Below, in pieces: positions 2,750 to 18,778 of a DNA stretch of 64,000 nucleotides. The notes beneath the pieces are model-generated. The model saw only the letters and a program-made list of their open reading frames with translations, was not told where the DNA came from and did not search any database. Position 1 is the stretch's first letter, and each line of letters begins with the position of its first letter. A program made the translations under genes and the position numbers. This DNA comes from Alcanivoracaceae bacterium (lineage in GTDB: Bacteria > Pseudomonadota > Gammaproteobacteria > Pseudomonadales > Alcanivoracaceae). Location of the stretch: positions 1 through 64,000 of the forward strand of contig JARGOL010000009.1 in assembly GCA_029212745.1 (NCBI GenBank). Reading direction: 5' to 3'.

Positions 2750-2750
2750 C

Positions 2751-3434
2751 ATGAATCCGAAACAGGTATTTATGGCGCTGGTGCTGGCCCTGTTCTCGGG
2801 GGCAGCGTTCGCGGGTTCATTGACCGAGCTCAGCGATGCGGACATGGGTGAAGTGGTGGCCCAGGACGGTATTGCCGTGGCCCTGGAATTGCGCGTCAAC
2901 GCCGACGCCAATGGCGACCCGCTGTCCAGCCTGAGCTTCTGCTCAGGGCTCAGCAACCCGTGCCGGATGGCACTGAATTTCAACAACCGCACGGACCTGG
3001 GCGGTGAGTGGCTGGTACTGAAGGACTGGTACGGTGTAATGAAGATCGACCCGATCTTCCTTGATGCAGGCACCCTCGCCAATGCCGGCTCGAACCTGGC
3101 CCTGTTCGATGCATCCAAGTTTGCGGATGCCAGTGGCAACTGTCTTGTCACAGGCAATGCGGGCGCCTGTTCGACGGGTGATATCACCAGCAATCCAGCG
3201 CTGGTGCTTTCCTACCCGTCGACCACGCTGAATTATGATCCCGGCACCAACACGTCCTCGGGCTACACCTCGCTGGAGATGAAATTCACTCTTGGCCGTA
3301 TGGCAGTGGAATTTGGTGCCAACGGCTACACGTCAGACAACAACGGTTCATTCCTTGGTGCCAATGTGGGCGATCTGGATGGCGGTCTCGCCGGTGCGTC
3401 TTTCTCAGGACAGGCTTATGTATTCGGTTTCTGA
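2751..3434 (+). CDS. Exported protein, DUF6160-like, operon gene 2
   Basis: Second and smallest (227 residues) of the four tandem exported proteins. The signal peptide ends near residue 21 (AAFA), followed by LTELSDADMGEVVAQDGIAV (24-43), the best match to the shared LSDxxLSxVxGQDGIA pattern. The body has paired cysteines (FCSGLSNPC, and NCLVTG...GACSTG), which would form disulfides in the periplasm or outside the cell. No transmembrane barrel or enzyme motif is visible. It overlaps the start of the next gene by 17 bases, which suggests translational coupling. Function unknown. Confidence 0.7.
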   Translation: MNPKQVFMALVLALFSGAAFAGSLTELSDADMGEVVAQDGIAVALELRVNADANGDPLSSLSFCSGLSNPCRMALNFNNRTDLGGEWLVLKDWYGVMKIDPIFLDAGTLANAGSNLALFDASKFADASGNCLVTGNAGACSTGDITSNPALVLSYPSTTLNYDPGTNTSSGYTSLEMKFTLGRMAVEFGANGYTSDNNGSFLGANVGDLDGGLAGASFSGQAYVFGF

Positions 3435-4764
3435 TAATAACAACAAGTCATTTATTGCAGGGCTGTTCCTGCTGCTGGCCGGTCTCGTTACCGGTAGTGC
3501 TGCCCATGCCATGGAGGAGCTGTCTGATGACCAGCTTTCCGATGTCATCGGCCAGGCCCTGTTTGTTTCCAACTCCCAGAGCCAGGGTGGCTTCGATTTC
3601 ACCAGTGTGGCCCTGGACGTGGAGATGGAGATCAACACCAATATTTCCCAGCTGCAGCTGGGCTGCGGTGGCATCAATGGCCCCGGCATCTGTGATATCG
3701 ACATTGATGATTTCAGCCTGACGGGTGATCCCGCCGGCGCCTGCGGTCCGGACCGGGTAAACTGTTCTGCCATCCTGACTCGGCCCTTCATTGAGTTCGC
3801 CATCAAGAACAACGGTTCCCGCACCCTGCGTGAGGTGGTCGGGTTCCGTCTGAGTGCGGAAAACATGCAAGGCCTGGTGACTGCCGGTCAGAACACCAGC
3901 AGTCCCAACGGTATCAATCGCCTGTCCGGTTACGTGGAAGTGGCGCCCACCAGCGGTACGGCAACCACCCAGCCTGGCGTGTTCGGCACCCAGCCGGATG
4001 AGCAGATCAACACCCTCGCGGACCTCAATATTGCCGCCTGTACCTCCGGCTGTGGTTCCGGGAGACCGCTTTACTCTCTGCCGGGGAGCTCGGCAGGCCT
4101 GAATATTCCGTCGGTGTCAGCGCCGTTTACCATTCCGGCGTTCACCATCTATGGCAATCGCCTTGAGTCGGTATCGGTGAACGCGTCAGCGGCCATTCCC
4201 AATATCACCCTGACCCAGCCCTCCGCCGGCACACTGGCGATGGAGCTGGCGACGCCCGCCTGCGTGCTCTACCTGGTCTGTATTTCGGAGACCGAACTGC
4301 GCCCGGATGCCGTGGTGGCGGGCCTGAGCGCCGACATTACTTTCGACGAGGATCTCGGCTTTATCCACAAACTGCCGATCAACAACCCGTTCTCGCTGTC
4401 GTTCCAGAAAGAGAACCTGCAATGGCCTGGCGCCACTGAAACGTCCCTGCGTGGCTGGTGGATGTCGTTCCAGGATCCGGTTGACTTCGGTGAGCTGAAC
4501 CCGGCGGAGCAGGTGGATATTTCCAGTGCCTACCCGCAGCTGGCTGTTCTTATGGGTACTACGCTGGCGCAGCCGGCGAACAGGGTGACGGTAACCACCG
4601 GGGACGGCCTTGAATCGCTGTTTAGCGGGGGTATATCGAAAGACCTGGGCACCCTGAACCTGACCGGGCAAACCGTGTTCCTGAATCTATCGGACCTTGC
4701 GCTGGATAGCTCCCAGGATGTGGTGTCCAACTGTCGCGGCGGGGGGTCCACATGTTTCTTCTAG
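3418..4764 (+). CDS. Exported Cys-rich protein, DUF6160-like, operon gene 3
   Basis: Third member, 448 residues. The open frame runs back to 3292, but the ATG at 3418 is the likely start because it gives a proper signal peptide (hydrophobic core 12-27, AHA cut at about 31) and has an AGGACAGG-like ribosome binding site inside the end of the previous gene. The motif MEELSDDQLSDVIGQ (32-46) follows, but the DGIA half seen in genes 2 and 4 is replaced by ALFV. It is cysteine-rich, with several close pairs (CGGINGPGIC, CTSGC, CVLYLVC) and a C-terminal NCRGGGSTCFF. It overlaps the next gene by 13 bases. Function unknown; a cell-surface or pilus-type role is only a guess. Confidence 0.7.
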   Translation: MYSVSDNNNKSFIAGLFLLLAGLVTGSAAHAMEELSDDQLSDVIGQALFVSNSQSQGGFDFTSVALDVEMEINTNISQLQLGCGGINGPGICDIDIDDFSLTGDPAGACGPDRVNCSAILTRPFIEFAIKNNGSRTLREVVGFRLSAENMQGLVTAGQNTSSPNGINRLSGYVEVAPTSGTATTQPGVFGTQPDEQINTLADLNIAACTSGCGSGRPLYSLPGSSAGLNIPSVSAPFTIPAFTIYGNRLESVSVNASAAIPNITLTQPSAGTLAMELATPACVLYLVCISETELRPDAVVAGLSADITFDEDLGFIHKLPINNPFSLSFQKENLQWPGATETSLRGWWMSFQDPVDFGELNPAEQVDISSAYPQLAVLMGTTLAQPANRVTVTTGDGLESLFSGGISKDLGTLNLTGQTVFLNLSDLALDSSQDVVSNCRGGGSTCFF

Positions 4765-6890
4765 CGCGTACGCCGCGGGTTCTTCTCGGCGCCTTTCTGG
4801 TAGCGGGCGTATCCCAGTCATGGGCAATGTCGGCGTTGTCGGATGAGGACATGTCCAATGTTGCCGGGCGGGATGGCCTCGCCGTGTCCATTGACGGCGA
4901 TATTACCGCCCAGTCCCTGCAGATACAGTCTGATATCGGCACCGCGCGGGAAGCCGGCATCATCGCCGAAGATATTGTCCTTGGCGGCACAGGGGCCGGC
5001 GAGTTCAACGCCGACCTGACCTTCGATACCACCAATGTTGGTGGTGTGCCGCGCCCGGTGATTGGTGCCAGTTGGGAAAATATCGAAATGCGCACCGGCG
5101 ATATTCGCCACACGTCGGCACTGGGCAACTCCTATGGCGAGGCTTACCTGTCCAGTGGCAGTGGTTCATTCCTGATTTCGGCGGAAAATGGCCTGTTCAA
5201 CAATGGCTCGAACCAGGGTTACCTGTCGTTGCGCTCTACCGGTGGTGACATCATCCTGCGCCAGGGCGGTCCGGGCTCCGCCGAGGTAAGCTTCGGCAAC
5301 TTCAACATCACCGCCGAAACGCAGGACGGTGCTGGCAACCTGGGCCCGGCCACCATGGGCATTGATGCGGACGGGCTGCTGATTGATGCGCCATTCCTGG
5401 AGTTCGCGCTTAATTTCGACCTGCTGTTCAAGGCCAATCCCACCGATTTTGACACCACCGGCCGTGATGCGCTGATCCTGTTTGGCTGGGAAGGTGGTGT
5501 GACCGATGCCAAGCTGCGCCTGGGTACTGGTGGTATTGGCTATGGCACCGCGGTAGGGCCCAGTGGCTTCCAGGAATTCAACTACGATGGCTCGCTGCTG
5601 GGTACCCGCTCAGAGGGCCTTAACCTGTCGGTGGAATGGAACTACGACACGGATTTCGCCTGGATCCTTGGCCAGGCCGCCGGCAACCGGACCCGGGCCC
5701 GGTTCTTTGACTGGCAGCGCATGCCGGGTGCCAGCATTGACTTCAGCATGCCGATCATCGTGGATGCCATCAACGGCGCCGGGCAGGGGCCAGGCAATAT
5801 CTGTTTCGGCGGTGACTTGCCCACGTCGGGCTCTCTCAATGCTACGGGTTGTGGCGCGGTGGGCGGAAGCCTGATTGCGCTGCCGCCGGATGCACCGGGG
5901 CTCGCCGTGATCATCCGTGACGGCCGTCTGCACGCCTATAACAGCCAGGTGGAAGTGATTGATCCCGGCACAGCCGTGCCCTCGGAAATCTTCAACTGGA
6001 GCCTGGTGTACACCTTCGGCAAGCTGGACTCCAACATCTACCTGTACCCGAGTGGTTTTGGCGGGGGTAATACCGGTATCCGTGCTGATGTGGCGCTGGC
6101 CATTCAGTCCCCGGGGTACTGGGACGCAGCCGCCACCAACTTCTCGGGCATCACCGGTGCGCAGATTGGCGACCCGGCCTTCGACCCGCGGGCACGCTGG
6201 GCCACCAATACCCACTTCCTGATTGCTGACACAGCCACGGCCACGGCCATTCCCACCGGCTCTGGCCCGTCAAACCGGTTCGGTATCGGCCTGGTGAACG
6301 CCGACTTGATCTGGAAGGTGGACGACTTCTTCCTGCGTATCGTCGACTCGGACCCTGATTACGCCGGCATTCCTGGCGGTCTCTGGCTGCAGTCCGACAC
6401 CGAAGCCACCTATCGCTTCCGTGGCCTGTTCGGCGGCGGTAGCCTGGATGATATGAGTGACCCGGTGCGTATCTCACTGCTGGATATCAATCTGGCCACC
6501 AACGGCTTCCTGTTCGCGCTCAGTGGTGCGCCAGGCGGGCAGAGCTACATTGGTTATGATGGCCTGCTGAATTTCGACGGGACTGCCTACGTATCTCTTG
6601 CTGAGCCGTCTTCGCCATCGGCGGACTTCCGTCTCGATAACGTCTCGGGCAACATCGCGTGGCGCAACGGTCGAGTGCTGCTGGAGTCTGCAGCAACCAC
6701 GGCAGACAACAAGCCGGCGCTGACATTGCAGAATGATCTGCAGTTCGGCTCCACAGCGGGTCTTGGTGGCAGCACGCCTTTCCAGGGTGACCCGCTGATT
6801 GGTGAGGTGTCATTCAGTGGCAAGACCCTGGGCCAGGTGGCGATCCCCTCGGGCCAGTGGTACAGCAGTATCTCCCTTAAGAAACAATAG
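4752..6890 (+). CDS. Large exported protein, DUF6160-like, operon gene 4
   Basis: Largest of the set, 712 residues. Signal peptide (core 9-20, cut after SWA near 25), then MSALSDEDMSNVAGRDGLAV (26-45), the shared post-signal motif. The long body is rich in Gly, Asn, Asp and Thr, with alternating hydrophobic residues and repeated Asn-Phe/Asp-Leu strands, suggesting an extended beta structure. No enzyme motif and no outer-membrane C-terminal signature (it ends SLKKQ). It closes the operon and is followed by a strong hairpin. It may be the main structural or surface-exposed component, with the smaller proteins as partners; this is inference from size and order only. Confidence 0.7.
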   Translation: MFLLARTPRVLLGAFLVAGVSQSWAMSALSDEDMSNVAGRDGLAVSIDGDITAQSLQIQSDIGTAREAGIIAEDIVLGGTGAGEFNADLTFDTTNVGGVPRPVIGASWENIEMRTGDIRHTSALGNSYGEAYLSSGSGSFLISAENGLFNNGSNQGYLSLRSTGGDIILRQGGPGSAEVSFGNFNITAETQDGAGNLGPATMGIDADGLLIDAPFLEFALNFDLLFKANPTDFDTTGRDALILFGWEGGVTDAKLRLGTGGIGYGTAVGPSGFQEFNYDGSLLGTRSEGLNLSVEWNYDTDFAWILGQAAGNRTRARFFDWQRMPGASIDFSMPIIVDAINGAGQGPGNICFGGDLPTSGSLNATGCGAVGGSLIALPPDAPGLAVIIRDGRLHAYNSQVEVIDPGTAVPSEIFNWSLVYTFGKLDSNIYLYPSGFGGGNTGIRADVALAIQSPGYWDAAATNFSGITGAQIGDPAFDPRARWATNTHFLIADTATATAIPTGSGPSNRFGIGLVNADLIWKVDDFFLRIVDSDPDYAGIPGGLWLQSDTEATYRFRGLFGGGSLDDMSDPVRISLLDINLATNGFLFALSGAPGGQSYIGYDGLLNFDGTAYVSLAEPSSPSADFRLDNVSGNIAWRNGRVLLESAATTADNKPALTLQNDLQFGSTAGLGGSTPFQGDPLIGEVSFSGKTLGQVAIPSGQWYSSISLKKQ

Positions 6891-6967: not shown

Positions 6968-8446
6968 ATGATTTTTGATGCCAACCAATTGCCTTCAGGT
7001 ACACGTCTGGAGTGCGATGTCTGCATTATTGGCGGCGGTGTTGCAGGGATCGTTCTGGCACTGACCCTGTCCCGCAACAGTGCTCTGAAAATCGTTATCG
7101 CAGAAGGTGGCGGTTTCGATTCCGACCCGTTCAGCACAGCACTGTATACCGGTGAGGCGGATCCCGCCGACTATCCGGCCATGCACAAATCCCGGCTGCG
7201 TTACCTCGGCGGCAGCTCCAATCACTGGGGCGGGTGGACGCTGCCGCTGCGCGCCAGCGATTTTGCCCCGCGTGAATTCCTTCCCCGCAGTGGCTGGCCC
7301 ATTACCCGGGAGTCCCTGGCCAGGTATGACGCCGAGGCGTCGCGTTGGCTGCAGCTCAACGGTGACACTCACGACACGGCGTTCTGGCTCAACCACAGTG
7401 ATGATTTCCAGCCTCTGCACGCGCCGGACATGGTTACCGATATCTACAGGTTGTCGCCGCCGACCCGTTTTGGTGAAGCCTACCGGCAGCAGCTCAAGGA
7501 TGCGGAAAACATCTACCTGATGTTGCATGCCAATGCGGTCGATCTGGTTGCCCACGAAAACGCCAGGGCTGCCAGGCAGCTTGTCTGCATGAACCAGACT
7601 TCGCGCCGGTTTGAAATCGCGGCAAGCCAGTATGTCCTCGCTGCCGGCGGTATCGAGAATCCACGCCTGATGCTCAATTTCCGCAGTTTCCATCGTGATG
7701 GCCTGGGTAATGAGCACGGCAATGTGGGGCGCTATTTTTCCGATCATGTCGGCTTTCGTTTTTCGCAGGCAGTGATTGACGGTTATGCCGGCCGCCGGCC
7801 GCTTTATGACCCGGTCGTCGGCTTCACCGACCGCCGTGAGGGCGCCCACCGGCTGGTGGGCGGCATGTCTTTTTCCGATGCGTACAGCAACGCCAACGGA
7901 CTGCGTAATACCGGCTTCCTGTTCCAGTTCCGTGGGCCGCTGGATGAATCCGGGCTTGCCGAGTTGCCGCAGTCCATGGCCGGCAACGCCGGTAACGACC
8001 CCGGCCTCGTTGATGTGTTCATGGGCGTTGAGCAGGCGCCGAACCGGGACAGCCGCGTGAGCCTCGTGCGCGACAAGGATCTTCTCGGCATGAACAAGGC
8101 AGAGCTGGATTTTCGCCTGGACAAAAGCGATGCAGAGGCGGTCAACGCCTCTGCCGATCACTTTGCCCGGGTGTTCAGCGCCAGTGGTCTGGGCCGGGTA
8201 AAGCTGGAACAGGGGTTCTGGCCGCCGAAAGCCCCTGAATACGGCAGCCATCACATGGGCACCACGCGCATGTCGCTGGATCCCCGTGACGGTGTGGTGG
8301 ACCCTGACTGTCGGGTACATGGTGTCGACAACGTCTTTGTGGCGGGCAGTTCTGTTTTTCCCACCTACGGGTATGCCCAGCCCACCTGGACGATTGTCTG
8401 CCTGGCGCTGCGTCTGGCGGAAACGTTGGGAGGTGACGTGTCATGA
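6968..8446 (+). CDS. GMC-family FAD dehydrogenase, large subunit
   Basis: FAD-dependent alcohol/sugar dehydrogenase of the glucose-methanol-choline family, 492 residues from the ATG at 6968 (a TTG 12 bases upstream is less likely). The FAD dinucleotide fold is at about residues 15-35 (CIIGGGVAG), followed by a GGSSNHWGGW segment. The C-terminal GMC block is clear: HHMGTTRM, then GVDNVFVAGSSVFPTYG and AQPTWTIVCLALR. It lacks its own signal peptide, and the overlapping next gene encodes a Tat-signal small subunit, as in membrane sugar/gluconate dehydrogenases whose large subunit rides out with the small one. No cytochrome c subunit is encoded here. Substrate unknown. First gene of a seven-gene operon. 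Confidence 0.88.
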   Translation: MIFDANQLPSGTRLECDVCIIGGGVAGIVLALTLSRNSALKIVIAEGGGFDSDPFSTALYTGEADPADYPAMHKSRLRYLGGSSNHWGGWTLPLRASDFAPREFLPRSGWPITRESLARYDAEASRWLQLNGDTHDTAFWLNHSDDFQPLHAPDMVTDIYRLSPPTRFGEAYRQQLKDAENIYLMLHANAVDLVAHENARAARQLVCMNQTSRRFEIAASQYVLAAGGIENPRLMLNFRSFHRDGLGNEHGNVGRYFSDHVGFRFSQAVIDGYAGRRPLYDPVVGFTDRREGAHRLVGGMSFSDAYSNANGLRNTGFLFQFRGPLDESGLAELPQSMAGNAGNDPGLVDVFMGVEQAPNRDSRVSLVRDKDLLGMNKAELDFRLDKSDAEAVNASADHFARVFSASGLGRVKLEQGFWPPKAPEYGSHHMGTTRMSLDPRDGVVDPDCRVHGVDNVFVAGSSVFPTYGYAQPTWTIVCLALRLAETLGGDVS

Positions 8447-8850
8447 GTGATCAAACAGCCTCACCGGGCATCCGGCGCCGTTCATTTCTTGCTGCTGCCG
8501 GGGCCGTCGGGGCGCTGACCCTGGCTGGCGTGCCGCTGCGGGTGAGCGCAGCGGAAACCAGGGCGGCGGCTCGCCTGTTGCGGGTATTACAGGCGTGGCC
8601 TTCGGACAGCTTTCTGCTGCAGTGCTTTGCTGACAAGGTGCAGGGCAGGGCCGCATCTGCGAATGAGGTGCTGATGTCGTTTCAGCGATTGTCGGCCCGT
8701 GTCGCCTCTGATGAGGAATTGCGCCGTGCGCTGCTCGAGCAGATCAGTGCTGATTGCCGGGCGGGCAGGATGGTATCAGCGCGCGGCTGGCTGGTGGCTG
8801 ATGCCGAAGCGCAGCTAATGCATTTGAAGGCCCGGGTGGCCGCGCTGTGA
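8443..8850 (+). CDS. Tat-exported small subunit of GMC dehydrogenase
   Basis: Small protein (135 residues) with a textbook twin-arginine signal: IRRRSFLAAAGAVGALTLAG (about residues 10-29), then a processing site near VSA. The mature part is helical and ends GRMVSARGWLVADAEAQL, resembling the Gly-Trp-Leu-(S/A)-x-x-Glu ending of sorbitol/fructose dehydrogenase small subunits. Its ATG overlaps the stop of the GMC gene (ATGA), so the two are coupled. It probably chaperones and exports the FAD subunit to the periplasm. The family link rests on signal, size, C-terminal pattern and neighbour rather than strong similarity. Confidence 0.75.
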   Translation: MSDQTASPGIRRRSFLAAAGAVGALTLAGVPLRVSAAETRAAARLLRVLQAWPSDSFLLQCFADKVQGRAASANEVLMSFQRLSARVASDEELRRALLEQISADCRAGRMVSARGWLVADAEAQLMHLKARVAAL

Positions 8851-8863
8851 AGGGGAGTGCCCC

Positions 8864-9805
8864 ATGAATGGCGAGAGCAGCAGCCCGATGCAGCCGGTCG
8901 GGAGCCAGCCCCGGCAAGCCGCGGACTGTCGTTCCCTGGTGCCGTTGCGCGCCGCTCTGGCCATTGCCCGGAACTGGTGCGGCATTACGCTCGCTATAGC
9001 GGCATATTCCATGATTGATGCACCGCTGCTGTATCCGGTTGTGGTTTTGCTGGTCGGTGCCTGCCAGCATGGGCTGGCCATTCTTGCCCATGATGGCGCG
9101 CATCGGCTGCTGTTTCGCCGGGCGAGCATCAATGACAGGGTGTCGGAGCTGCTGCTGGCCTGGCCGCTGTTTGCCAGTTTTGCCAAGTATCGCAACGAGC
9201 ACCTCGACCACCATCGGCACCTGAATAGCGATAAGGACCCTGACTGGGCCAGGAACCGGCCGGACCGGCTGGCAAGCAAGGCGTCACTGGCCGCGCGCGC
9301 CGCGCATCTTCTGGGCCTGAGCCATGCCCTTTCAACCGTGCGGGGATTCATGCTGCCCGCGGGGCAGGGCGAAAGCATTTCCCCACGCGGGGTGCCTGTG
9401 CGTGCCGTTTACTACCTTGCGTTGGCCGTTGCCCTGTCAGTCAGTGGCCACTGGCTGGATTTCGTTCTGCTCTGGGTTGTGCCTTATGCGCTGGTGTTTC
9501 TGCCACTCATGCGACTGCGCGGGATCATGGAGCACTGGCTGGCAGGCAGTGAGGGTGCCGGCACCCGTTCTGTGCTGATGAATCCCTGGCTCGGGTTTTT
9601 CTTTTTTCCGCACAACATCGGCTACCATGTCGAGCACCATGATTGCCCGGCCATACCGTTCTACCGTTTGCCCGAGTATGCGCGGGAAAATCGCTTGAGG
9701 CTCTTTGATGGCACTGATGAGCGTCGGCGGGTTGTCGGGTTGCGCGGCATGATTGCAGAGTTGTTGGCTTTGCTGAATCCAGGAAGACGGGTATCAGAAC
9801 GTTGA
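8864..9805 (+). CDS. Membrane fatty acid desaturase-family protein
   Basis: Integral-membrane diiron desaturase/hydroxylase, 313 residues. All three histidine boxes are present: HDGAH (about 73-77), HLDHHRHLN (about 110-118) and HNIGYHVEHH (about 250-259), with hydrophobic spans between them. These coordinate the two irons in acyl desaturases and related hydroxylases. The start has an AAGGGGAG ribosome binding site. It lies between dehydrogenase and glycosyltransferase genes in one operon, so the substrate may be a lipid or lipid-linked sugar made by this cluster rather than bulk membrane fatty acids. Desaturase versus hydroxylase or ketolase cannot be told from sequence alone. Confidence 0.87.
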   Translation: MNGESSSPMQPVGSQPRQAADCRSLVPLRAALAIARNWCGITLAIAAYSMIDAPLLYPVVVLLVGACQHGLAILAHDGAHRLLFRRASINDRVSELLLAWPLFASFAKYRNEHLDHHRHLNSDKDPDWARNRPDRLASKASLAARAAHLLGLSHALSTVRGFMLPAGQGESISPRGVPVRAVYYLALAVALSVSGHWLDFVLLWVVPYALVFLPLMRLRGIMEHWLAGSEGAGTRSVLMNPWLGFFFFPHNIGYHVEHHDCPAIPFYRLPEYARENRLRLFDGTDERRRVVGLRGMIAELLALLNPGRRVSER

Positions 9806-11379
9806 AAACGCTTGAGAGAATGCTCGCACGGGTGCCGGCCTGGTGCTATTTGCCGCTGCTTTTCCTGTTGTATACTGCCCTTGCCTGGCTTGGCAGCCTG
9901 GAAGGTGAGTTCGCCTATCGCTGGGCGTGGGTTGAAGGTTCGAACCTGCTCGGCATTGATGACGCCTACCGGTACTACCTGAGCAAATACGCATTCACCA
10001 GCGGACAAATCTACGCATGGGATTATGTGCTGCCGGCAAGCACCTTCTTTTTTGGCGCGATCAACGCGTTTTTGGGCTCTGAGATATTTTTGGCCCGGGC
10101 CGTGATTGTCTGTTTTTCCCTGCTGGGTATTACCTGTCTTTACCGCGCCATCAGGATGATGAACCTGTCTCTCTGGACGGCCCTTGGGGCCATGGCGATC
10201 TATGCCCTGATGCCCGTTGTCGTCATCATGAACATGAGCTTTTACGGTGAGATGCTGCTGCTGGTGATCTTCTCTGCGGCGGTTTTCTTTTATCTCCGGG
10301 AGCGGCTTCTGCTGGCCGCTTTCCTGATCTCCCTTCTGCCCCTCGCGCGTCCGGAAGGCATCTTCCTGTTAGCCCCTTTTTCACTGGCCTTGTTGATGAG
10401 GCGGCAGTACGCCGCCTTTCTCATGACCGGCGCCAGTGGTTTTTGCTTCCTGCTGTTTCTGCTCTACTATTTTGACGGCGATCTGACGCTTCTCTACGAG
10501 TGGCGCGTGGAGATTCGGCGCATCTGGAGTCTCTTCGTGATGCCGAATACATACGCGTTTCCATTGCTCGGTACCTTTAATCCCCTGTGGGTGATTCCTG
10601 CGGCGGTTGGCCTTCTGGTTCCCGGCATGCGCCGTTACTGGCCGATCTGGAGTGGCGCCTTTCTCTGGTTGCTGTTCTACAGCACGCTGGTGGCCACCGG
10701 CCTGTCGAGCTATGAGTCACGCTACCTGATTGCCTGCTTCCCGGCACTGACGATTGGCTTCGCCGCGCTGGTTGACTACATCAACAATCAGGTAGCGAAG
10801 GATCTCTGGGCGGAATACAGTCGCCTTTTCAGCGGGTTCCTGGTGGTCTTCATCGTCGGCGAACATATGCTCCAGATTGACCCGATCAAGCACCGTATGG
10901 GCGGCGAGCGGGTGCCTCTGCAGTCCATGCGTGTGTTTAACCCGGACTTTGTGCGCGTTACCAGCGAAGACCTGGAGGAGATTTCCGGGATGTCACGGAA
11001 AATCAGCCATCTGTTTGCCGAGCATCCCAGGATTGATACGTTGCTGGTTTTCAATCCGGATATTTTCTATTCGCTGTCACCCTACATTGCACGGACGGAC
11101 AAGCGGGTGTTTCTTGCGCCGCTGCCCCAACAGGTTTCTATCGGTGTGACCGGCGGCAGTTTTTTTACCTATGGACAGTTTGGCAGGAAATACGCCTATT
11201 TCGATCTGTACGAGCCCAAGGGTGCGCTTGACGGTATTGCGATCTATGCCGGCTATCTGGACGCGCCGGAAACCATTCCCCGTTACAGCTTCGGTGACAG
11301 GCGCCTTTTCGTTGTCGGCTACCGGGAGCGCCTGGAGCCGGCTGACCTGATCGACATGCCGGTGCAGTTTTACCAATGA
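9802..11379 (+). CDS. GT-C/GT39-like polytopic membrane glycosyltransferase
   Basis: Membrane protein of 525 residues with about ten hydrophobic helices in the first 370 residues and a soluble C-terminal domain of about 150. An acidic GIDDAYRYYLSKY segment follows the first helix, in the position where GT-C enzymes (ArnT/PMT type) carry catalytic acid residues in the first external loop. This suggests transfer of a sugar from a polyprenyl-phosphate donor on the outer face of the inner membrane. The start is probably TTG at 9802, overlapping the previous stop as TTGA; an ATG at 9820 is the alternative. Acceptor and donor are unknown. Assignment rests on topology and the acidic loop. Confidence 0.65.
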   Translation: MKTLERMLARVPAWCYLPLLFLLYTALAWLGSLEGEFAYRWAWVEGSNLLGIDDAYRYYLSKYAFTSGQIYAWDYVLPASTFFFGAINAFLGSEIFLARAVIVCFSLLGITCLYRAIRMMNLSLWTALGAMAIYALMPVVVIMNMSFYGEMLLLVIFSAAVFFYLRERLLLAAFLISLLPLARPEGIFLLAPFSLALLMRRQYAAFLMTGASGFCFLLFLLYYFDGDLTLLYEWRVEIRRIWSLFVMPNTYAFPLLGTFNPLWVIPAAVGLLVPGMRRYWPIWSGAFLWLLFYSTLVATGLSSYESRYLIACFPALTIGFAALVDYINNQVAKDLWAEYSRLFSGFLVVFIVGEHMLQIDPIKHRMGGERVPLQSMRVFNPDFVRVTSEDLEEISGMSRKISHLFAEHPRIDTLLVFNPDIFYSLSPYIARTDKRVFLAPLPQQVSIGVTGGSFFTYGQFGRKYAYFDLYEPKGALDGIAIYAGYLDAPETIPRYSFGDRRLFVVGYRERLEPADLIDMPVQFYQ

Positions 11380-11404
11380 TCTTTCCAGCGGCGGGGGCCT
11401 GTCC

Positions 11405-12013
11405 ATGCGAATGATACCGGCCTGGCTGGAGGGGTGGTTGCTTCGCCTGATCGGCGTGCCGGCGGCGCAAAGCAGGCTGGTTGATGTCTGTCGCACGGCG
11501 CTTGAGGGGCGGGCGCCGGTCAGCGTGCTGGATCTCGGTTGTGGTTCCGGTGTCTACGCGGGTCTGCTGCCATTTGAACGATACACTGGTGTTGACCGGT
11601 CCCGGCAATGCATCGAGTCTGCCCGTAGCCACTGCCGTCATTCCGGGGCATCGTTCCAGTGCGCCGATGTCAGCGCATTCCTCGCCGACGACAAGGGCCC
11701 GTATGACCTGGTCCTGATGGTGGGATTGCTGCACCATCTGGACGATAGCACTGGCAGGGCGGTTCTTGAGGCGTCGGCCCGGTTGCTGACGCAGGGCGGT
11801 GTGGCGGTGTCAGTTGATCCGGTCCTGTTGCCGCGTCAGAGGCCAATGGCACGATTGATGGCGTTGCTGGACAGGGGTAATCATGTTCGCACCCGCGAGG
11901 GCTATGGCGCCCTTGTTCCGGACGCTTTGCGTATTCACGAGCAGCGGGTGTCTGGATCAGAGCTGCGTGTTCCCCAGGACCTGTTATTGATGGTCATGAG
12001 GAGGGCCTGGTGA
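11405..12013 (+). CDS. Class I SAM-dependent methyltransferase
   Basis: Soluble methyltransferase, 202 residues. SAM-binding motif I is VLDLGCGSGVYAG (about residues 40-52), then YTGVDRS (motif II acidic region) and LVLMVGLLHHLDD (motif III-like). No lipid or nucleic-acid domain is attached, so the substrate cannot be named. It could be a sugar hydroxyl or a small lipid intermediate, given the operon. Its stop overlaps the start of a second methyltransferase by 4 bases. Confidence 0.82.
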   Translation: MRMIPAWLEGWLLRLIGVPAAQSRLVDVCRTALEGRAPVSVLDLGCGSGVYAGLLPFERYTGVDRSRQCIESARSHCRHSGASFQCADVSAFLADDKGPYDLVLMVGLLHHLDDSTGRAVLEASARLLTQGGVAVSVDPVLLPRQRPMARLMALLDRGNHVRTREGYGALVPDALRIHEQRVSGSELRVPQDLLLMVMRRAW

Positions 12014-12876
12014 AGACGGATTCGGATTTTCTGCGCGACTGCATGGATGTCTCGCCGGCGGTGATACGGTCGATTGCGGAGCGGTATGAGGTTGATCCGG
12101 ATTTCGTCGCCACTGCCATCGCCGCCAGCATCGACGACGCCTGCTTTTACATCAATGTGGTGCGGGAACGCTTCCCGCCGGGCGCACACTTGCTCGAGGC
12201 CGGTGCCGGACTGGGGCTTCTGACCCTGCTGCTGGAGCGCCATGGCTACAGCGTGTCCTGCCTGGAGCCGTTTTCCGGGCCATTCTCTCCGTATGCTGAT
12301 GTGCGCCGGCTGATGGGTATTGATGACCATGCGCTATCAGGCGCCTTCTATACGGACATGTCGCAAGTGCCCACCGGGGAGTTCGACGGTGTGGTCAGTT
12401 TCAATGTGGCGGAACATGTGGCGGACATTCGCGAATTTATTCTGGGCCTCGCCGGCGCACTGGTGTCGGGCGGGGCGATGGTGGTGATCTGTCCCAATTA
12501 CAATGTGCCGTACGAGCCTCATGTAGGCGCCTTTTTCACACGGCCAATAAGCGGAGAATCCCATCCTCGCCTCTGGCGCCGGTTGAATCGGTTCCAGAAA
12601 GACGTCATCACGACACTCAATTATGTGACCTACCAGGATATCCGGGCGCTACTGGATGCAACGCCTTATCGACTGTCATTTGATCGCGCCATTTTTCCCA
12701 TGTCGGTGCGCCGCCTGATGGAAAGCCGTGCCTTCAAGAAGAAACATCCACACCTTTCGGCAACGAGCAGCCGGGTGCTGTTGCGTCTGGCCAGCATGGT
12801 TGCGGGGCTTGTCCCGGCGAGATGGTTGACCCCGATGCTGTTCGAGGTGCATCGGCCGAAGGAGAGTGCCCATTGA
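12010..12876 (+). CDS. SAM-dependent methyltransferase, second copy
   Basis: Methyltransferase-fold protein, 288 residues, with glycine-rich SAM site LLEAGAGLGLLTLLLERHG (about 58-76) and FDGVVSFNVAEHVAD (about 125-139). It differs clearly from the preceding enzyme, with a longer C-terminal region rich in Arg and aromatics, so the pair is not a recent duplication. The GTG start at 12010 overlaps the previous stop (GTGA). The next gene overlaps its end by 4 bases. Substrate unknown; the context points to glycan or glycolipid tailoring. Confidence 0.78.
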   Translation: MKTDSDFLRDCMDVSPAVIRSIAERYEVDPDFVATAIAASIDDACFYINVVRERFPPGAHLLEAGAGLGLLTLLLERHGYSVSCLEPFSGPFSPYADVRRLMGIDDHALSGAFYTDMSQVPTGEFDGVVSFNVAEHVADIREFILGLAGALVSGGAMVVICPNYNVPYEPHVGAFFTRPISGESHPRLWRRLNRFQKDVITTLNYVTYQDIRALLDATPYRLSFDRAIFPMSVRRLMESRAFKKKHPHLSATSSRVLLRLASMVAGLVPARWLTPMLFEVHRPKESAH

Positions 12877-13874
12877 CGGCGCCAGACTGGCAGCAAACTG
12901 GGCCCTCCGATGAGGGCCTGGTGCGCTGCCTGCACGCAGCGCTTGAGGGCGGAGCTCGGGCCTGCCCGTTCGCGCATATGCCGTACGCGGCATTACCCGG
13001 TGCGGCTGCATCAGTCGGCGAGCTGCTGTTGGCTGACGCCATCGCCGTGTTCGCCAGCGTGTCCCGGACGGGTGGCCTGCGCGCGGCTTTGATTGTCTGT
13101 CATCTTCCCTGGGACAGTGAGTTTTTTGGCCAGCCTGTGTATGCGCTACGCGTCCTTGCGCCGTCTGACGACGTCGTCGACCCGGATGACTGGCGAGAGG
13201 GGTTGGCACGTGCGATGGACCTGGTCCGGGAGCGAGCACCCGGTGCCCATGTCTCCTGTCGTGTGTATCCGGACAATGCCGGTCTGCTCGCTGCGCTGCC
13301 GGATTCAGGGTTCTGGCTGGTCGATACGCAACTGCACATGATCGCGCGCCGCGCTGACCTCAATGACATTCGACCAGGGGCGGCGGTCATTCGTCTGAAC
13401 GATGCCGCACGGCATGGACCACTCGTGGAAGCATTCGCCAGGACCTGTGCGTTTCCGTCACGACTGAGCCGGGATGCTTTTTTTGACCCCGCCAGGGTTG
13501 CCGAAATGAATCACCGCTGGCTGCGCCAGTTATGTTTCGATGAAAATGGTGTTGCGTTTGGAGTGCTCTCGCAGGGTCGGCTGGCCGGGTTTGCCGGCGG
13601 CCAGCTGATGACGGAACCCGCCGGCAATGGCACCCGCCAGTTCGTTTCCCGCATCCTCGCCGGTTCAGTGCCGGGCAAGGGCGCCCAGGGGTTCTATGCG
13701 ATGAGCCGCCTTGGCGCCACGGTGGCAAAGCAGGCGGCCTATGTCGAAGCTGTCATATCCGTGGCAAATACGGGTGCACTAAGGATGGTTGAACGGCTGG
13801 GCTATCGCACCTTCGCGGCCAGCCACTGTTTCCATTTCCGGCCTGTCAGCGCAACGCCCCCGCCAGCACGCTGA
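12873..13874 (+). CDS. WecD-like GNAT acetyltransferase
   Basis: GNAT-type N-acyltransferase, 333 residues from a TTG start. The frame is open upstream, but TTG at 12873 has a strong AAGGAGAG site 6 bases away and overlaps the previous stop (TTGA). The segment LPWDSEFFGQPV (about 74-85) is a hallmark of dTDP-fucosamine acetyltransferase WecD and relatives; the C-terminal GNAT core includes AVISVANTGALRMVERLGY. A WecE-type aminotransferase lies at 16810-17952, so this enzyme plausibly acetylates the amino sugar WecE makes. It is longer than E. coli WecD (about 224 residues), with extra sequence at the N-terminus. It ends 29 bases inside the convergent epimerase gene. Confidence 0.7.
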   Translation: MTAPDWQQTGPSDEGLVRCLHAALEGGARACPFAHMPYAALPGAAASVGELLLADAIAVFASVSRTGGLRAALIVCHLPWDSEFFGQPVYALRVLAPSDDVVDPDDWREGLARAMDLVRERAPGAHVSCRVYPDNAGLLAALPDSGFWLVDTQLHMIARRADLNDIRPGAAVIRLNDAARHGPLVEAFARTCAFPSRLSRDAFFDPARVAEMNHRWLRQLCFDENGVAFGVLSQGRLAGFAGGQLMTEPAGNGTRQFVSRILAGSVPGKGAQGFYAMSRLGATVAKQAAYVEAVISVANTGALRMVERLGYRTFAASHCFHFRPVSATPPPAR

Positions 13875-14973
13875 CAGTGTCGGGTGTTTCCTGTCCTGCT
13901 GCTGGGCGCGCATCGTCCGGGTGGCGCAGCAGTGAGCCGTGCATGACCAGATCGGTGTTTTGCGCGGCACTCTGTTCAATGTGGCGGTACCAGTCCAGTC
14001 GTATCGTTTCCGGCCCGTCGCTGGTGCGCCCATTTTCCAGCGCATCAACGATTTCTTCGACACCGGTTGCTACGCTGGTGCCAGGCAGCCAGCCGAGCAG
14101 TTGCCTGAGCCTGTCGAACCTGACCTCGTAACTGCGGCTATCCGCAGAGCCGTAGAAGGCGGTACTGACCGTTGTGCCACAGGTGCGTGACAGTTGCTGG
14201 CTGACGGTCATGGCCACGTCCCTGAGGGCAATATTCAGCGCTTCGCTGCCAACGTTGATGATGTGCTTGTTGAGAACGGATGAAGGCATCGCCAGCATCC
14301 TGGCAAACGCCTCGGTCACGTCCCGGACATGAATAAAAGGCCGTCGCTGGCTGCCATCGCGCATCAGCCGCACGGTCTGTTGCTTCCAGCCGTCACGGGA
14401 CATGGCATTGATGGCGAGGTCGAATCGCATTCGCGGCGACAGGCCAAACACGGTGGCAAGGCGCAATACGGTCACGTGGAAATCCGTGTCTGCCAGCGGC
14501 AGGATGTCGCGCTCTGCGGCAAGGTTCGCGCGCGCATAGTCGGTTTGTGGTGCCGGCACGCTGGATTCGTCGACACATGATGGGTTGAAGCCATAGACGC
14601 TGCAGCTGGAGGGCAGCATGTAGTGGTCGACCCCGGCTTCCCGGGCCAGGCGGGCGGTGCGCAACCGGGCACGGTGATTGATCGCCCAGGTGCTGTCGGG
14701 GTAGTGCGCTCCGGTGGGATCATTCGAGACTGCGGCCAGGTCGATGACCCGCGTCACGCCCTTGAACAGGTGCCGCGGCAGGAAACGGGTATCTTCACGG
14801 ACCACCTCCAGGCCTGGCGCAGGTGCGGGCGCTGGGCCGAAGAAAAAGCGGTCGACGGCAATCACCGAATGACCCTCAGCAAGTAGCACGGGCACCAGCA
14901 CCGAGCCGATGTAGCCGCCAGCACCGGTCACCAGTACATGTTCACGCGTGGTTGTTATTTTTGTGGTATCCAT
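13846..14973 (-). CDS. NAD-dependent nucleotide-sugar epimerase/dehydratase, YxxxN variant
   Basis: Extended short-chain dehydrogenase acting on nucleotide sugars, 375 residues. The N-terminal Rossmann motif is VTGAGGYIGS (about 15-24), then IDLAAVSNDP (about 78-87), the usual H/L-AA region, and PSSCSVYG (about 121-128). The catalytic YxxxK appears as Tyr146-Ala-Arg-Ala-Asn150: the DNA reads AAC where Lys is expected. The Lys normally positions NAD and lowers the Tyr pKa, so activity may be altered, lost or replaced by another residue. Its neighbours (WecD-like, WecE-like, GT-C) suggest a role in sugar precursor supply. Its 3' end overlaps the convergent GNAT gene. Confidence 0.83.
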   Translation of the reverse strand: MDTTKITTTREHVLVTGAGGYIGSVLVPVLLAEGHSVIAVDRFFFGPAPAPAPGLEVVREDTRFLPRHLFKGVTRVIDLAAVSNDPTGAHYPDSTWAINHRARLRTARLAREAGVDHYMLPSSCSVYGFNPSCVDESSVPAPQTDYARANLAAERDILPLADTDFHVTVLRLATVFGLSPRMRFDLAINAMSRDGWKQQTVRLMRDGSQRRPFIHVRDVTEAFARMLAMPSSVLNKHIINVGSEALNIALRDVAMTVSQQLSRTCGTTVSTAFYGSADSRSYEVRFDRLRQLLGWLPGTSVATGVEEIVDALENGRTSDGPETIRLDWYRHIEQSAAQNTDLVMHGSLLRHPDDARPAAGQETPDTVSVLAGALR

Positions 14974-15125
14974 TGGCCTGTCGCTGGTTGCCGGTCATGG
15001 TCAGGGCGCGCTGGCCGCCAGTATAGCGCAGGCAGCGGCCGGGCCGGTATGGCCCGGGACGGCGCCTGCAGGCGGTGATGGCGACCGGAAGCCGCAATCG
15101 GCGATAAATGGTCGTTCCGGTATAT

Positions 15126-15141
15126 TGTGACACAGTTCACA
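15126..15141. promoter_or_regulatory. Perfect CRP/Vfr-type palindrome
   Basis: TGTGACACAGTTCACA is an exact TGTGA-N6-TCACA match, the CRP-family consensus. It lies between the divergent epimerase (start 14973) and radical SAM (start about 15200) genes, 59 bases before the latter. Either or both promoters may respond to cAMP-CRP/Vfr or a related regulator. Confidence 0.65.
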
Positions 15142-15199
15142 TTGCGGTAGTTTGAGGCAATAGGGTGTGTTCCAGCACCTTCTGCAGGGATGTCTGTCC

Positions 15200-16795
15200 G
15201 TGACAACAAAAAAGATCAGGGTTGAGAATCAAAAGGGCGTGGTCAGCTCGACCTTCGAGACGTTCCTGAATGGCGCGATCAATCCCGGTTGCCGGCCATT
15301 CCGCGTTCTTTTCATCAAGCCCTGGCAGGCATCGCGCTACAACGTTACCGGCCCGCCGCTGGGCATACTCTATCTGATATCCGTGCTGCGCAAACGCTTC
15401 GGCGACGCCGTCACCATCGATTTCTGGGACATGCAGGTTTATCGCCAGAGCGTTGACTCGGTGGACGCGGTGACCCGGCGGCTGGAGCAAAGCCGTCCCG
15501 ATGTGGTTGCTGTGTCAGCCCTGAACCAGGAAGCGGCCTGCAGCTATCGCCTGGCCCAGCTGGTCAAGGCCCACGATCCTTCGATCATCACGGCCATCGG
15601 CGGCCCCTTCGCCCTGCGCCAGGCAAATGTGATCATGAAGGAAAGCTGTTTTGACTGGGTATTCGAAGGCGCCGCTGATCGCACCTTTACGGTTGCCCTT
15701 GAACGCTACTTCAGTGGTCTGCCCCTGGGGCAGGATCTTCCCGGGTTCAGTTACCGCTCAGGCGATACAGTGCACATGGGGTCTGGCCAGGATCTCATTA
15801 CCGACCTGGATGCCATTCCGTTGCCGGCCTGGGACCTTATCGATTTCGAGCGCTACCGCTGGCGTGACCGGCCGCGCCTGATCACCAATCCGTACGAAAC
15901 CCGCTATGCGTTCCTGTTTACCTCGCGCGGCTGTCCGTACCTGTGCAACTACTGCCATGACATCTTCACAAAGCGTTTCGTGTACCGCTCCGAGGATAAT
16001 GTCATTGCGGAAATGCGGATGCTCTACGACGACTATGGTGTGCGTGAGTTCCACATCATTGATGACATCTTCAATCTGCACAAACCACGCGCCAAGGCAC
16101 TGATGCGGCGTATTGCAACCGAATTTGACGACATCCTGATCGCATTTCCCAACGGCCTGCGCGCTGACATTCTCGACAAGGAGCTCATCGACCTGATGGT
16201 CAAGGCGGGCACCTATAACGTCGGCATCGCCATTGAGACAGTAACGCCACGCCTGCAGGAAAAGATCGAGAAGTTCCTGGATGTGGAGAAAGCCAACTGG
16301 GCGATCACCGAGTTCGCGCGCCAGGGCTGTATCGTGAACGGCTTCTTCATGCTTGGTTTCCCCGGGGAAACGGTGGAGGAGTTGAGGAGTACCATTGGTT
16401 TTGCCCACAAGAGTGCGCTCACCCATGCCTTCTTCTTTTCGGTGGTGCCACAGCCGCAAACGCCGATCTACGACCTGGCCATGCAGGAAGCGCCTGACAT
16501 GACGGAGATGCTGGCGCGGCATGAGCGTGGCCAGATGTATACCGGTGGCTATTCCTGGTATTCGCATGTCTACGGTTTTGACCTGGAACGGGAGATCAGC
16601 CTGGCGGGATTGCGCTTCTACCTGAAGCCGTCACGTCTGCTGCGCGCCCTGCAGGTATACCCGATGGCATTGCTGGTGCCCGCCGGTTTCAATGTCTTCC
16701 GTCGTTTCGGCCAGGCCCTCTGGGAAGGTGCCAAGAACTCCCTTCGCGGATGGCGTGCGCGTGGAACCGGCGACAAGGATATCAAGCTGCCCTGA
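15200..16795 (+). CDS. Radical SAM protein with B12-binding-like N-terminal domain
   Basis: Radical SAM enzyme, 531 residues from GTG 15200 (AGGGA site 9 bases upstream); GTG at 15167 would add 11 residues. The N-terminal half has the fold signature of cobalamin-binding radical SAM proteins (GPPLGILYLISVLRKR near 52-67, then DVVAVSALNQEA and TAIGGPFA) but I see no DxHxxG, so His-on cobalamin binding is doubtful. The [4Fe-4S] motif is GCPYLCNYC (Cys245, Cys249, Cys252). Later, NGFFMLGFPGET is typical of the family. Such enzymes make C-methylations or rearrangements on lipids, sugars and cofactors. Substrate unknown; the neighbourhood suggests glycan or lipid modification. Confidence 0.85.
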   Translation: MTTKKIRVENQKGVVSSTFETFLNGAINPGCRPFRVLFIKPWQASRYNVTGPPLGILYLISVLRKRFGDAVTIDFWDMQVYRQSVDSVDAVTRRLEQSRPDVVAVSALNQEAACSYRLAQLVKAHDPSIITAIGGPFALRQANVIMKESCFDWVFEGAADRTFTVALERYFSGLPLGQDLPGFSYRSGDTVHMGSGQDLITDLDAIPLPAWDLIDFERYRWRDRPRLITNPYETRYAFLFTSRGCPYLCNYCHDIFTKRFVYRSEDNVIAEMRMLYDDYGVREFHIIDDIFNLHKPRAKALMRRIATEFDDILIAFPNGLRADILDKELIDLMVKAGTYNVGIAIETVTPRLQEKIEKFLDVEKANWAITEFARQGCIVNGFFMLGFPGETVEELRSTIGFAHKSALTHAFFFSVVPQPQTPIYDLAMQEAPDMTEMLARHERGQMYTGGYSWYSHVYGFDLEREISLAGLRFYLKPSRLLRALQVYPMALLVPAGFNVFRRFGQALWEGAKNSLRGWRARGTGDKDIKLP

Positions 16796-16809
16796 AGCCG
16801 TGGCCGCCG

Positions 16810-17952
16810 TCAGTCCTCCCGGGCAGAAACAAGCGCGCAGACTTTCCTGATAACGTCTTCCGGCATGTCAGGCCACAGGGGCAGGCGGAGCAGCGAGGCT
16901 GCCGCGCGCTCCGTGCATGGCAGTGCCTGCCCATCGTGATACTGCCGGCCCAGGGGCGACTGGTGCAGTGGCACATAATGCGGCGCAGCGGTTATGCCCG
17001 CCGCGGACAGTGTCTGCTGTAACCGGCTTCTGGCTCGCGAGTCGCTGGTGCGGATGGCGAACTGGTGCGCGTTGTGCGCGGCATAGGGTGGTACGGTCAT
17101 CAGTCTGTACCCGTCATGGGTGCCTGTGAGCAGTTGGTGATAGCTGTTCCAGGCAGCCAGGCGCGCGTCATGCCACTGTTGCGCGTACTCCAGTTGCGCG
17201 CTCAGGAATGCACTGACCAGCTCCGACGGGCCGCCGCCCGGGCTTGGTGCACGCCATTGATAGTGCGCGACCGCCTTTCGCTCGAAAGCCATGCGGTCAG
17301 TGCCTTTTTCACGCAGGTATTCAGCCCGGGGGACCAGGTCCGGCCTGTTGATCAGCAGGGCGCCGGCTTCCCCGGCGCCCACATTCTTGGTGCTGTGAAA
17401 AGAAAGCACGCCGATGTCACCCAGTGTGCCCAGCGGCACTTCCCTGTGATTTGCCAGTAATCCCTGGGCCGCGTCTTCGATGATGGCCAGCCCATGGTGG
17501 CGGGCCAGTGACAGGAGGGCATCCATGTCGGCCGCGACGCCGGCATAGTGAACCACGCAGATCGCCCGGGTGCGGCTGGAAATCTTCGCGGCCACAGCGT
17601 CCGGGTCGAGATTGAGCGTTTCCGGGTCAACATCGGCGAACACCGGCTGCGCGCCCACCAGGAGCACGGCATTGGCGGTGGACGGAAAGGTCCAGCTGGG
17701 CATGATGACTTCGTCGCCGGGGCGCAGCTCCAGCAACAACGCCGCCATGTGCAAGGCCTGGCTCGCGGAGCCGGTCAGCAATGCCCGCTGACATCCAAGC
17801 CGGGCCTGCAGCCAGTCTTCGCAGAGCCGGGTGAAGTGCCCGCCACCGCCCAGCCGGCCGCTCTCCACGGCGGCCCTGACACGGTCAAGGGCATGCGGGG
17901 CGACGGGCGGCTGGCTCAGGGGAACCGGCATGTCAGGAACCGATGCCGTCAC
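16810..17952 (-). CDS. wecE: dTDP-4-amino-4,6-dideoxygalactose transaminase (WecE/RffA)
   Basis: PLP sugar aminotransferase of the DegT/DnrJ/EryC1 family, 380 residues from GTG 17952, which sits 4 bases after the ppsR stop with AGGG upstream (an ATG at 17931 is the alternative). It aligns by eye along its length with E. coli WecE: GGGGHFTRLCEDWLQ, PGDEVIMPSWTF, VHYAGVAADMDALL, IEDAAQG and GDIGVLSFHSTKN, with the PLP lysine at Lys189. WecE converts dTDP-4-keto-6-deoxyglucose to the 4-amino sugar, later acetylated by WecD to dTDP-Fuc4NAc. Being directly behind ppsR is unexpected; co-transcription with ppsR is likely from the spacing. Confidence 0.9.
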   Translation of the reverse strand: MTASVPDMPVPLSQPPVAPHALDRVRAAVESGRLGGGGHFTRLCEDWLQARLGCQRALLTGSASQALHMAALLLELRPGDEVIMPSWTFPSTANAVLLVGAQPVFADVDPETLNLDPDAVAAKISSRTRAICVVHYAGVAADMDALLSLARHHGLAIIEDAAQGLLANHREVPLGTLGDIGVLSFHSTKNVGAGEAGALLINRPDLVPRAEYLREKGTDRMAFERKAVAHYQWRAPSPGGGPSELVSAFLSAQLEYAQQWHDARLAAWNSYHQLLTGTHDGYRLMTVPPYAAHNAHQFAIRTSDSRARSRLQQTLSAAGITAAPHYVPLHQSPLGRQYHDGQALPCTERAAASLLRLPLWPDMPEDVIRKVCALVSARED

Positions 17953-17956
17953 CGGA

Positions 17957-18778
17957 TCAGCCCTGCAACTTACGCTGAAGCCCGGTGCTGGCCATGATCC
18001 GCGTGGCAATTTCTTCCACAGACAGCTCGGTTGCATCCAGGTAGGGAATATTGTGCTTGTTGTAAATGGCCTCCAGGCCACGCACTTCAAGGTCGCACTG
18101 GCGCGCCGAGGCATACTTGCTGCCCGCCTTGCGCTCGCTGCGGATCGCTGACAGGCGGTCGGCGTTGATGGTCAGGCCGAAGATCTTGTCCTTGTAGGGC
18201 TGCAGGCTCTTTGGCAGGCGCAGGTCGTCGAAGTCATCTTCGGTGAGCGGGTAGTTGGCCGCGTTGAGGCCGAACTGCAGCGCCAGGTACAGGCAGGTTG
18301 GCGTCTTGCCGCTGCGCGATACGCCGGTGAGGATGATGTCGGCCTGGTCGTAGTGGCGGGTGCGGGCGCCGTCGTCGTTGTCCAGGGCGTAATGCACGGC
18401 GTTGATGCGAATGCGGTAGGCCTCGTGGTCCTTGATGGCATGGCTCTGGCCCACGGTATGACTGGAGCGCATGCCCAGCTCCGCCTCCAGTGGCGCCAGG
18501 AACACCGCAAACAGGTCGAGCACCAGGCCCTTGCAGCCGTTCAGGATGGTGCGGTGTTCTTCATCCACCAGCGTGCTGAACACGATCGGTTTGTCATGGC
18601 CGGCATCTACTATGCGGTTAATCTGGGCCACTGCCTCGTGGGTCTGCTCATTGGTCTGCACGTAGGGGAGGGTGACCTGGGCCCACTCCATGCCGGCAAA
18701 CTGGCTGATCATCGAATGCCCAAGGGTTTCTGCGGTGATGCCGGTGCCGTCGGAGACAAAGAAAGCCGTTCGTTTCAT
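17957..18778 (-). CDS. ppsR: PEP synthase regulatory kinase/pyrophosphorylase PpsR
   Basis: DUF299 family, 273 residues, the usual length. It inactivates PEP synthase by ADP-dependent phosphorylation of a threonine and reactivates it by Pi-dependent dephosphorylation. Visible marks: the N-terminal FFVSDGTGITAETLGHS, and the P-loop-like GVSRSGKTPTCLYLA (about 152-166). It is divergent from ppsA across 150 bases, the standard arrangement. The ATG start is unambiguous. Confidence 0.95.
   Translation of the reverse strand: MKRTAFFVSDGTGITAETLGHSMISQFAGMEWAQVTLPYVQTNEQTHEAVAQINRIVDAGHDKPIVFSTLVDEEHRTILNGCKGLVLDLFAVFLAPLEAELGMRSSHTVGQSHAIKDHEAYRIRINAVHYALDNDDGARTRHYDQADIILTGVSRSGKTPTCLYLALQFGLNAANYPLTEDDFDDLRLPKSLQPYKDKIFGLTINADRLSAIRSERKAGSKYASARQCDLEVRGLEAIYNKHNIPYLDATELSVEEIATRIMASTGLQRKLQG

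Follow-up and report, generated by a model that had tools for sequence, protein, structure and literature searches.

We analyzed the first 64,000 nucleotides of contig JARGOL010000009.1 from an Alcanivoracaceae bacterium (assembly GCA_029212745.1; hereafter, the window), in which a run of glycan-type enzyme genes adjoins four genes, S1 to S4, for secreted proteins that may be its substrates. A preliminary description had placed seven co-directional open reading frames (ORFs) on the + strand at 6968-13874, and all seven were found there: a GMC-family flavin adenine dinucleotide (FAD) dehydrogenase, a small protein with a twin-arginine translocation (Tat) signal, a desaturase, a GT-C glycosyltransferase, two methyltransferases and a GNAT acyltransferase. 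When recomputed, the junctions from the GMC to the GNAT gene were -4, +13, -4, +25, -4 and -4 bases, identical to the four 4-base overlaps and two short gaps reported earlier. The limits given to the unit were, however, too short, as the S1-S4 genes (1664-6890, + strand) are directly upstream of the GMC gene with spacings of +1 (S1/S2), -17 (S2/S3), -13 (S3/S4) and +77 (S4/GMC). The quartet and the seven genes probably constitute an operon of 11 genes that, judged from spacing alone, would be carried on a single transcript. Promoter scanning yielded matches no commoner than chance, and terminator scanning yielded matches slightly above the shuffle mean, no more. Downstream of the run, on either strand (13846-18114), are genes for an epimerase-like short-chain dehydrogenase/reductase (SDR), a B12-binding radical S-adenosylmethionine (SAM) enzyme and a WecE-like aminotransferase, followed by ppsR and ppsA.

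Each of S1 to S4 starts with a signal-like segment that is followed by a common motif (i.e., L-x-D-x-x-L/M-x-x-V-x-G/A-Q). S1 (1664..2749), the first of the quartet and a proposed glycan acceptor, is 45-60% identical to its homologues in the same quartet. S2 (2751..3434) has a conserved C-terminal GF, S3 (3418..4764) is 48% identical to its homologue in G003, and S4 (4752..6890; 712 amino acids, aa) is predicted to be mostly beta with long strands. The S3 C-terminus reads NCRGG..CFF in the window and NC(W/Y)G..FC in its homologues; this and the S2 C-terminus are possible sorting or assembly signals. We also noticed that the S2 homologues have aromatic-rich C-termini ending in YGF or FGF. The N-terminal region of S1-S4 weakly resembles DUF6160 and FilA, but all four proteins are under the curated cut-offs of both families. 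Against Pfam DUF6160 (cut-off, 27 bits), S2 and S4 scored 26.9 and 25.3 bits, respectively, and S3 was further under. The NCBIfam family FilA, a "putative pilus system protein" with a cut-off of 220 bits, was weakly matched by S1 (E 0.049, its sole match), S2 (E 2e-4, far under the cut-off) and S4, at 24.2 bits at most, and a pilus role would be conjectural. FilF of Acinetobacter, whose system bears the same name as that of FilA, is a lipoprotein dependent on the type II secretion system (PMC12802150). The AlphaFold2 model of S4 (pLDDT, 71; pTM, 0.70) had no significant match among solved structures, the weak top matches including BPI and LptD, and a search of PDB sequences with an S4 profile returned nothing. 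Within the set of papers searched, none was relevant to these Alcanivorax surface proteins, and DUF6160 was mentioned in a single unrelated one. It should be noted that the window genome possesses two further S1-S4 quartets, both without GT-C, at G000:C12:232000-250000 (L123) and 290000-308000 (L124).

The proposed core transferase is the GT-C protein (9802..11379, + strand). By itself it matched nothing in Pfam, and one member of its family matches PMT at 2e-4. Its AlphaFold2 model (pLDDT, 79; pTM, 0.82) displays the GT-C fold that the preliminary description had assigned, matching ALG12 (2e-5), ALG9 (4e-5), ArnT (1e-4) and Pmt4 (3e-3), all with probability 1.00, as well as AftA/B; the matches to ALG12, ALG9 and ArnT spanned E 2e-5 to 3e-4. 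In its DDAYR motif near the N-terminus, Asp53-Asp54 and the Tyr-Arg pair are invariant in 11 members, and the two aspartates would be located in the first periplasmic loop. The GT-C enzymes of the ALG12, ALG9, ArnT and Pmt4 type use polyprenyl-phosphate-linked sugars as donors, which are made by GT2 enzymes of the ArnC/DPM1 kind. These structural relatives and a GT2 partner suggest that a polyprenyl-phosphate sugar may also be the donor here. The GT2 gene of the window (25711..26406, - strand), a proposed polyprenyl-phosphate sugar synthase, is displaced beyond ppsA and stands between two genes that are directly adjacent in cassette-free relatives. Its product scored 290 bits against the profile of the cassette GT2 proteins, a profile that includes the window GT2 itself. 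GT2 proteins of a single family occur with the GT-C loci; the match in G042 is weak (41 bits), and in G022 the GT2 genes are on other contigs. None of the fetched loci without GT-C had such a GT2 gene except L067, which belongs to the GT-C-bearing genome G022.

The locus was compared across 46 genomes of the family Alcanivoracaceae. The block prpF-[S1-S4]-ppsR-ppsA is common to the relatives. In cassette-free genomes, the quartet is alone between prpF and ppsR or shares this interval with a small number of genes (e.g., L110, L114, L115 and L122); in other relatives, a glycosylation-type cassette is inserted in the prpF-ppsR block. A contig scan with the desaturase as sole query identified no relative, whereas a scan with the GT-C alignment did. 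The preliminary description had called for a gene-neighborhood search and held that an order occurring only in this genome would speak against the unit. In the closest counterpart, Alcanivorax sp. S71-1-4 (L062/L129), six of the seven genes have homologues that are grouped, in a rearranged form, with a small protein whose start has an RR signal and which follows the GMC gene, as the Tat partner does: ppsR, GT2, DegT, epimerase, GT-C and both methyltransferases are on one strand, and S1, S2, S3, S4, desaturase, GNAT, GMC and a small Tat-signal-like ORF are on the convergent strand. The set is therefore not confined to this genome, and its recurrence at the corresponding position of further genomes argues for an arrangement beyond chance. 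The G004 locus has the GMC protein, the Tat protein and the radical-SAM enzyme in common with the window, and the tailoring genes of other loci differ (i.e., fatty-acid hydroxylase, desaturase, UbiA, KASIII, SDR, PhyH and geranylgeranyl-reductase-like).

GT-C was found in 10 of the 46 genomes, all 10 of which have S4, and 10 of the 11 full-length GT-C genes adjoin S genes. S4 was matched in 30 genomes, 20 of them without GT-C; the match in one of the latter, G005, covered only 55 residues, so that S4 is clear in 29. On the S4 tree, cassette presence changes at least eight times on well-supported branches. Two loci, L064 and L065, have two tandem S quartets, each with its own GT-C. Outside the family set, GT-C, GNAT and GT2 genes adjoin the S quartet in a metagenome-assembled genome (MAG) of the Moraxellaceae (L135) and in an unplaced proteobacterial MAG (L130); the latter locus contains GT-C, GNAT, GT2, a PhyH protein, S4-S1 and little else, with prpF and ppsR not adjoining. 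Since the cassette comes and goes while the S genes stay, and stays at the S genes when present, the S proteins are favored as its target over servants of its product.

The GMC dehydrogenase (6968..8446, + strand; GMC_oxred_C, 5e-23) is closest by sequence, among its top PDB matches, to FAD-glucose and fructose dehydrogenases. The preliminary description of a Tat-exported dehydrogenase holds for the pair of proteins but not for the enzyme itself, which has no signal peptide: the twin-arginine signal RRRSFLAAAG is on its 135-aa neighbor (8443..8850, + strand; RRRSFLAAAGAVGAL signal), a proposed hitchhiker carrier. In each of the three glyco-locus cases, the GMC gene is followed by one for a small protein that starts with an RR signal; those of L062, L073 and L079 were aligned. 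Near ORF residue 475, the three glyco-locus GMC proteins have QPT instead of the usual NPT, and the relatives compared from outside the locus show either NPT or FPT. The catalytic subunit of FAD dehydrogenases of this kind is exported by a small subunit with a Tat signal acting as a hitchhiker (PMC6719666), and in those FAD-glucose and fructose dehydrogenase complexes, as here, a signal-less GMC subunit is adjoined by a small Tat-signal protein. Unlike in those complexes, the small protein of the window lacks a sequence match to the known one (searches of PDB sequences, as a single sequence and as a profile, gave nothing relevant), no iron-sulfur cysteine cluster is evident in the GMC protein, whose only cysteines (positions 3, 20, 23, 211, 452 and 482) are not clustered in the insert region, and no cytochrome c subunit gene was recognized in the locus. 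Beyond ppsR in G004 (L158 4258-6458), we also observed a second small Tat-signal protein next to a large ORF whose start resembles that of an FAD oxidoreductase.

The remaining genes of the run encode putative tailoring enzymes, and Pfam bore out the domain labels previously given to the GMC protein, the desaturase and both methyltransferases. The membrane di-iron desaturase/hydroxylase (8864..9805, + strand; FA_desaturase, 4e-40) retains three His boxes (i.e., HDGAH, HLDHH and HNIGYHVEHH). Methyltransferase 1 (11405..12013, + strand; Methyltransf_25, 2e-16) and methyltransferase 2 (12010..12876, + strand; Methyltransf_23, 5e-9) are SAM-dependent, and both have homologues in L062, that of the first adjoining GT-C. 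The GNAT gene (12873..13874, + strand) starts with the TTG at 12873, which is part of a TTGA overlap and is closely preceded by AGGAGAG. The sequence of its product alone matched nothing in Pfam or NCBIfam, and its WecD-like label is owed to the family profile only, which matched the TDP-fucosamine acetyltransferase WecD (2fs5) at E 9e-4 with partial cover. Convergent with the operon is the gene for the extended-SDR epimerase/dehydratase-like protein (13846..14973, - strand), homologues of which occur in the same locus of L062, L063, L064, L066 and L073. It is followed by the B12-binding radical-SAM enzyme (15167..16795, + strand), proposed to catalyze C-methylation and having a homologue of 54% identity in the cassette of G004, and by the WecE-like sugar aminotransferase (16810..18114, - strand), the ORF of which overlaps ppsR, so that its true start probably lies further in. 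The aminotransferase scored 425.2 bits against PRK11706 (WecE; cut-off, 375), 377.1 bits against TIGR02379 (under the cut-off of 434.85) and 202.8 bits against the ArnB-type PRK11658 (under the cut-off of 631), and matched the WecE structure 6blg at 3e-92. When an anti-phage defense library was compared with the cassette, only weak generic matches to methyltransferases and radical-SAM enzymes were obtained.

On balance, we consider it probable, by a modest measure, that the locus encodes a glycosylation cassette dedicated to the co-encoded quartet of four secreted surface proteins. In this proposal, the epimerase/dehydratase-like protein and the WecE-like aminotransferase would produce a nucleotide-linked 4-amino-deoxy sugar in the cytosol, the amine of which would be acylated by GNAT. 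The methyltransferases, the radical-SAM enzyme and the di-iron desaturase/hydroxylase would, in a presumed order, add methyl groups and a hydroxyl group or double bond. GT2 would then load the sugar on polyprenyl phosphate, and, after the lipid-linked sugar is flipped, the GT-C enzyme (ArnT/Pmt/ALG type) would transfer the sugar to S1-S4 on the periplasmic side before the S proteins reach the surface. The GMC dehydrogenase would fold in the cytosol, ride out on its Tat-signal partner and oxidize a hydroxyl of the exported sugar in the periplasm. The preliminary interpretation was of a tailored glycolipid or glycan. Glycan tailoring, periplasmic oxidation and an outer-face GT-C enzyme are well supported by the gene content, but a free glycolipid or glycan is less likely than decoration of surface proteins, because the S1-S4 genes are upstream and the sugar genes downstream of the run.

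Several observations weigh against the proposed glycosylation of the quartet. S1-S4 are only putative glycoproteins, and neither their length nor their Ser/Thr/Asn content differs between GT-C-bearing and GT-C-lacking loci. One GT-C locus (G022 contig 3) is away from S genes, and lipid-type enzymes (i.e., KASIII, fatty-acid hydroxylase, UbiA and geranylgeranyl-reductase-like) are encoded in related loci. No RmlA or RmlB over the cut-off was found in the window genome, and the epimerase-like SDR has YxxxN at residue 150 in place of the catalytic YxxxK, an exchange common to all six members at these loci; the proposed sugar route is accordingly tentative. At G000:C2:48600-69000, a weak RmlA-like match is grouped with several genes of the dehydratase/epimerase type, a possible alternative source of the sugar nucleotide.

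The main rival explanation, which we regard as rather unlikely, is that the product is a tailored membrane glycolipid or modified lipid A, with the GT-C enzyme acting like ArnT on a lipid acceptor and S1-S4 carrying or displaying the product. The top fold matches of the GT-C enzyme (ArnT, ALG9 and ALG12) indeed have lipid-linked acceptors, the lipid-type genes of the related cassettes would fit such a product, and BPI and LptD, albeit not significant, are among the weak top matches of S4. However, two thirds of the S4-carrying genomes have S blocks without the GT-C cassette, which argues that the function of the S proteins is independent of the cassette product, and the cassette is rarely found away from S genes. 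A still less probable explanation is that the S proteins form a scaffold for a separate surface glycan in the same layer, to which they are bound non-covalently. The genetic linkage would accommodate this, but among the cassette genes scanned (a part of the total), no polymerase or Wzx/Wzy-type export gene was recognized, the only candidate being an LPG_synthase-family transmembrane protein in G011. A chance landing of the cassette at an insertion hot spot between prpF and ppsR, with no functional tie to S1-S4, is very improbable despite the variable gene content of that interval, as the GT-C, GNAT, GT2 and S4-S1 cluster of L130 without adjoining prpF/ppsR and the separate GT-C of each tandem quartet in L064/L065 indicate that the linkage tracks the S genes and not the site.

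To state, as was done previously, that the genes match no known pathway is too strong, as the logic of the proposed glycosylation cassette is that of the Arn/Pgf-type GT2 plus GT-C systems. In the Streptococcus mutans Pgf operon (pgfS-pgfM1-pgfE-pgfM2), the glycosyltransferase PgfS and its partners are reported to modify the surface proteins Cnm and WapA (PMC5856776); in both systems, the genes for a GT2 and a membrane transferase accompany, or are close to, those for surface proteins. The GT2 of L062 weakly matches PgfS (E 0.008). Unlike Pgf, the window cassette is in a Gram-negative host, has multiple, different and only candidate acceptors, and adds an aminotransferase, an acyltransferase, methyltransferases, a desaturase and a periplasmic dehydrogenase. 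The Arn pathway (ArnB, ArnC and ArnT), which attaches aminoarabinose to lipid A, likewise has a DegT aminotransferase and a GT-C enzyme with the ArnT fold, and the cassette GT2 weakly matches the ArnC-type PRK10714 (E 2e-4; 20.3 bits, cut-off 529). In contrast to that pathway, the aminotransferase here is WecE-like rather than ArnB, no ArnA or ArnD was recognized in the window locus, and the cassette is linked to S proteins. Compared with WecE/WecD of enterobacterial common antigen synthesis (dTDP-Fuc4NAc), the relationship is strong for WecE and weak for WecD, but the window GNAT is longer and divergent, and the genome has no RmlA/RmlB over the cut-off.

The proposal provides a function-level hypothesis for an uncharacterized quartet that about 29 of the 46 genomes compared carry. 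Should the GMC dehydrogenase indeed oxidize the exported sugar, protein glycosylation would include a redox tailoring step on the periplasmic side. That cassettes have been exchanged repeatedly at a single locus suggests that the surface varies; we speculate that such variation could be relevant to attachment to oil droplets, to predation or to the adsorption of phages. Only tentatively do we extend the proposal to an undescribed, fast-changing glycoprotein coat of Alcanivorax-type bacteria, in which a four-protein structure would bear a glycan that is varied by cassette exchange and oxidized after export by the Tat-hitchhiking GMC dehydrogenase. Among minor observations at the compared loci, ppsR occurs in two tandem copies in L062 (607-2562), L066 (948-2648) and L118 (7625-9580), and a 2366-aa ORF is divergent to the S3-GT-C pair of G008 (L072 7902-14999).

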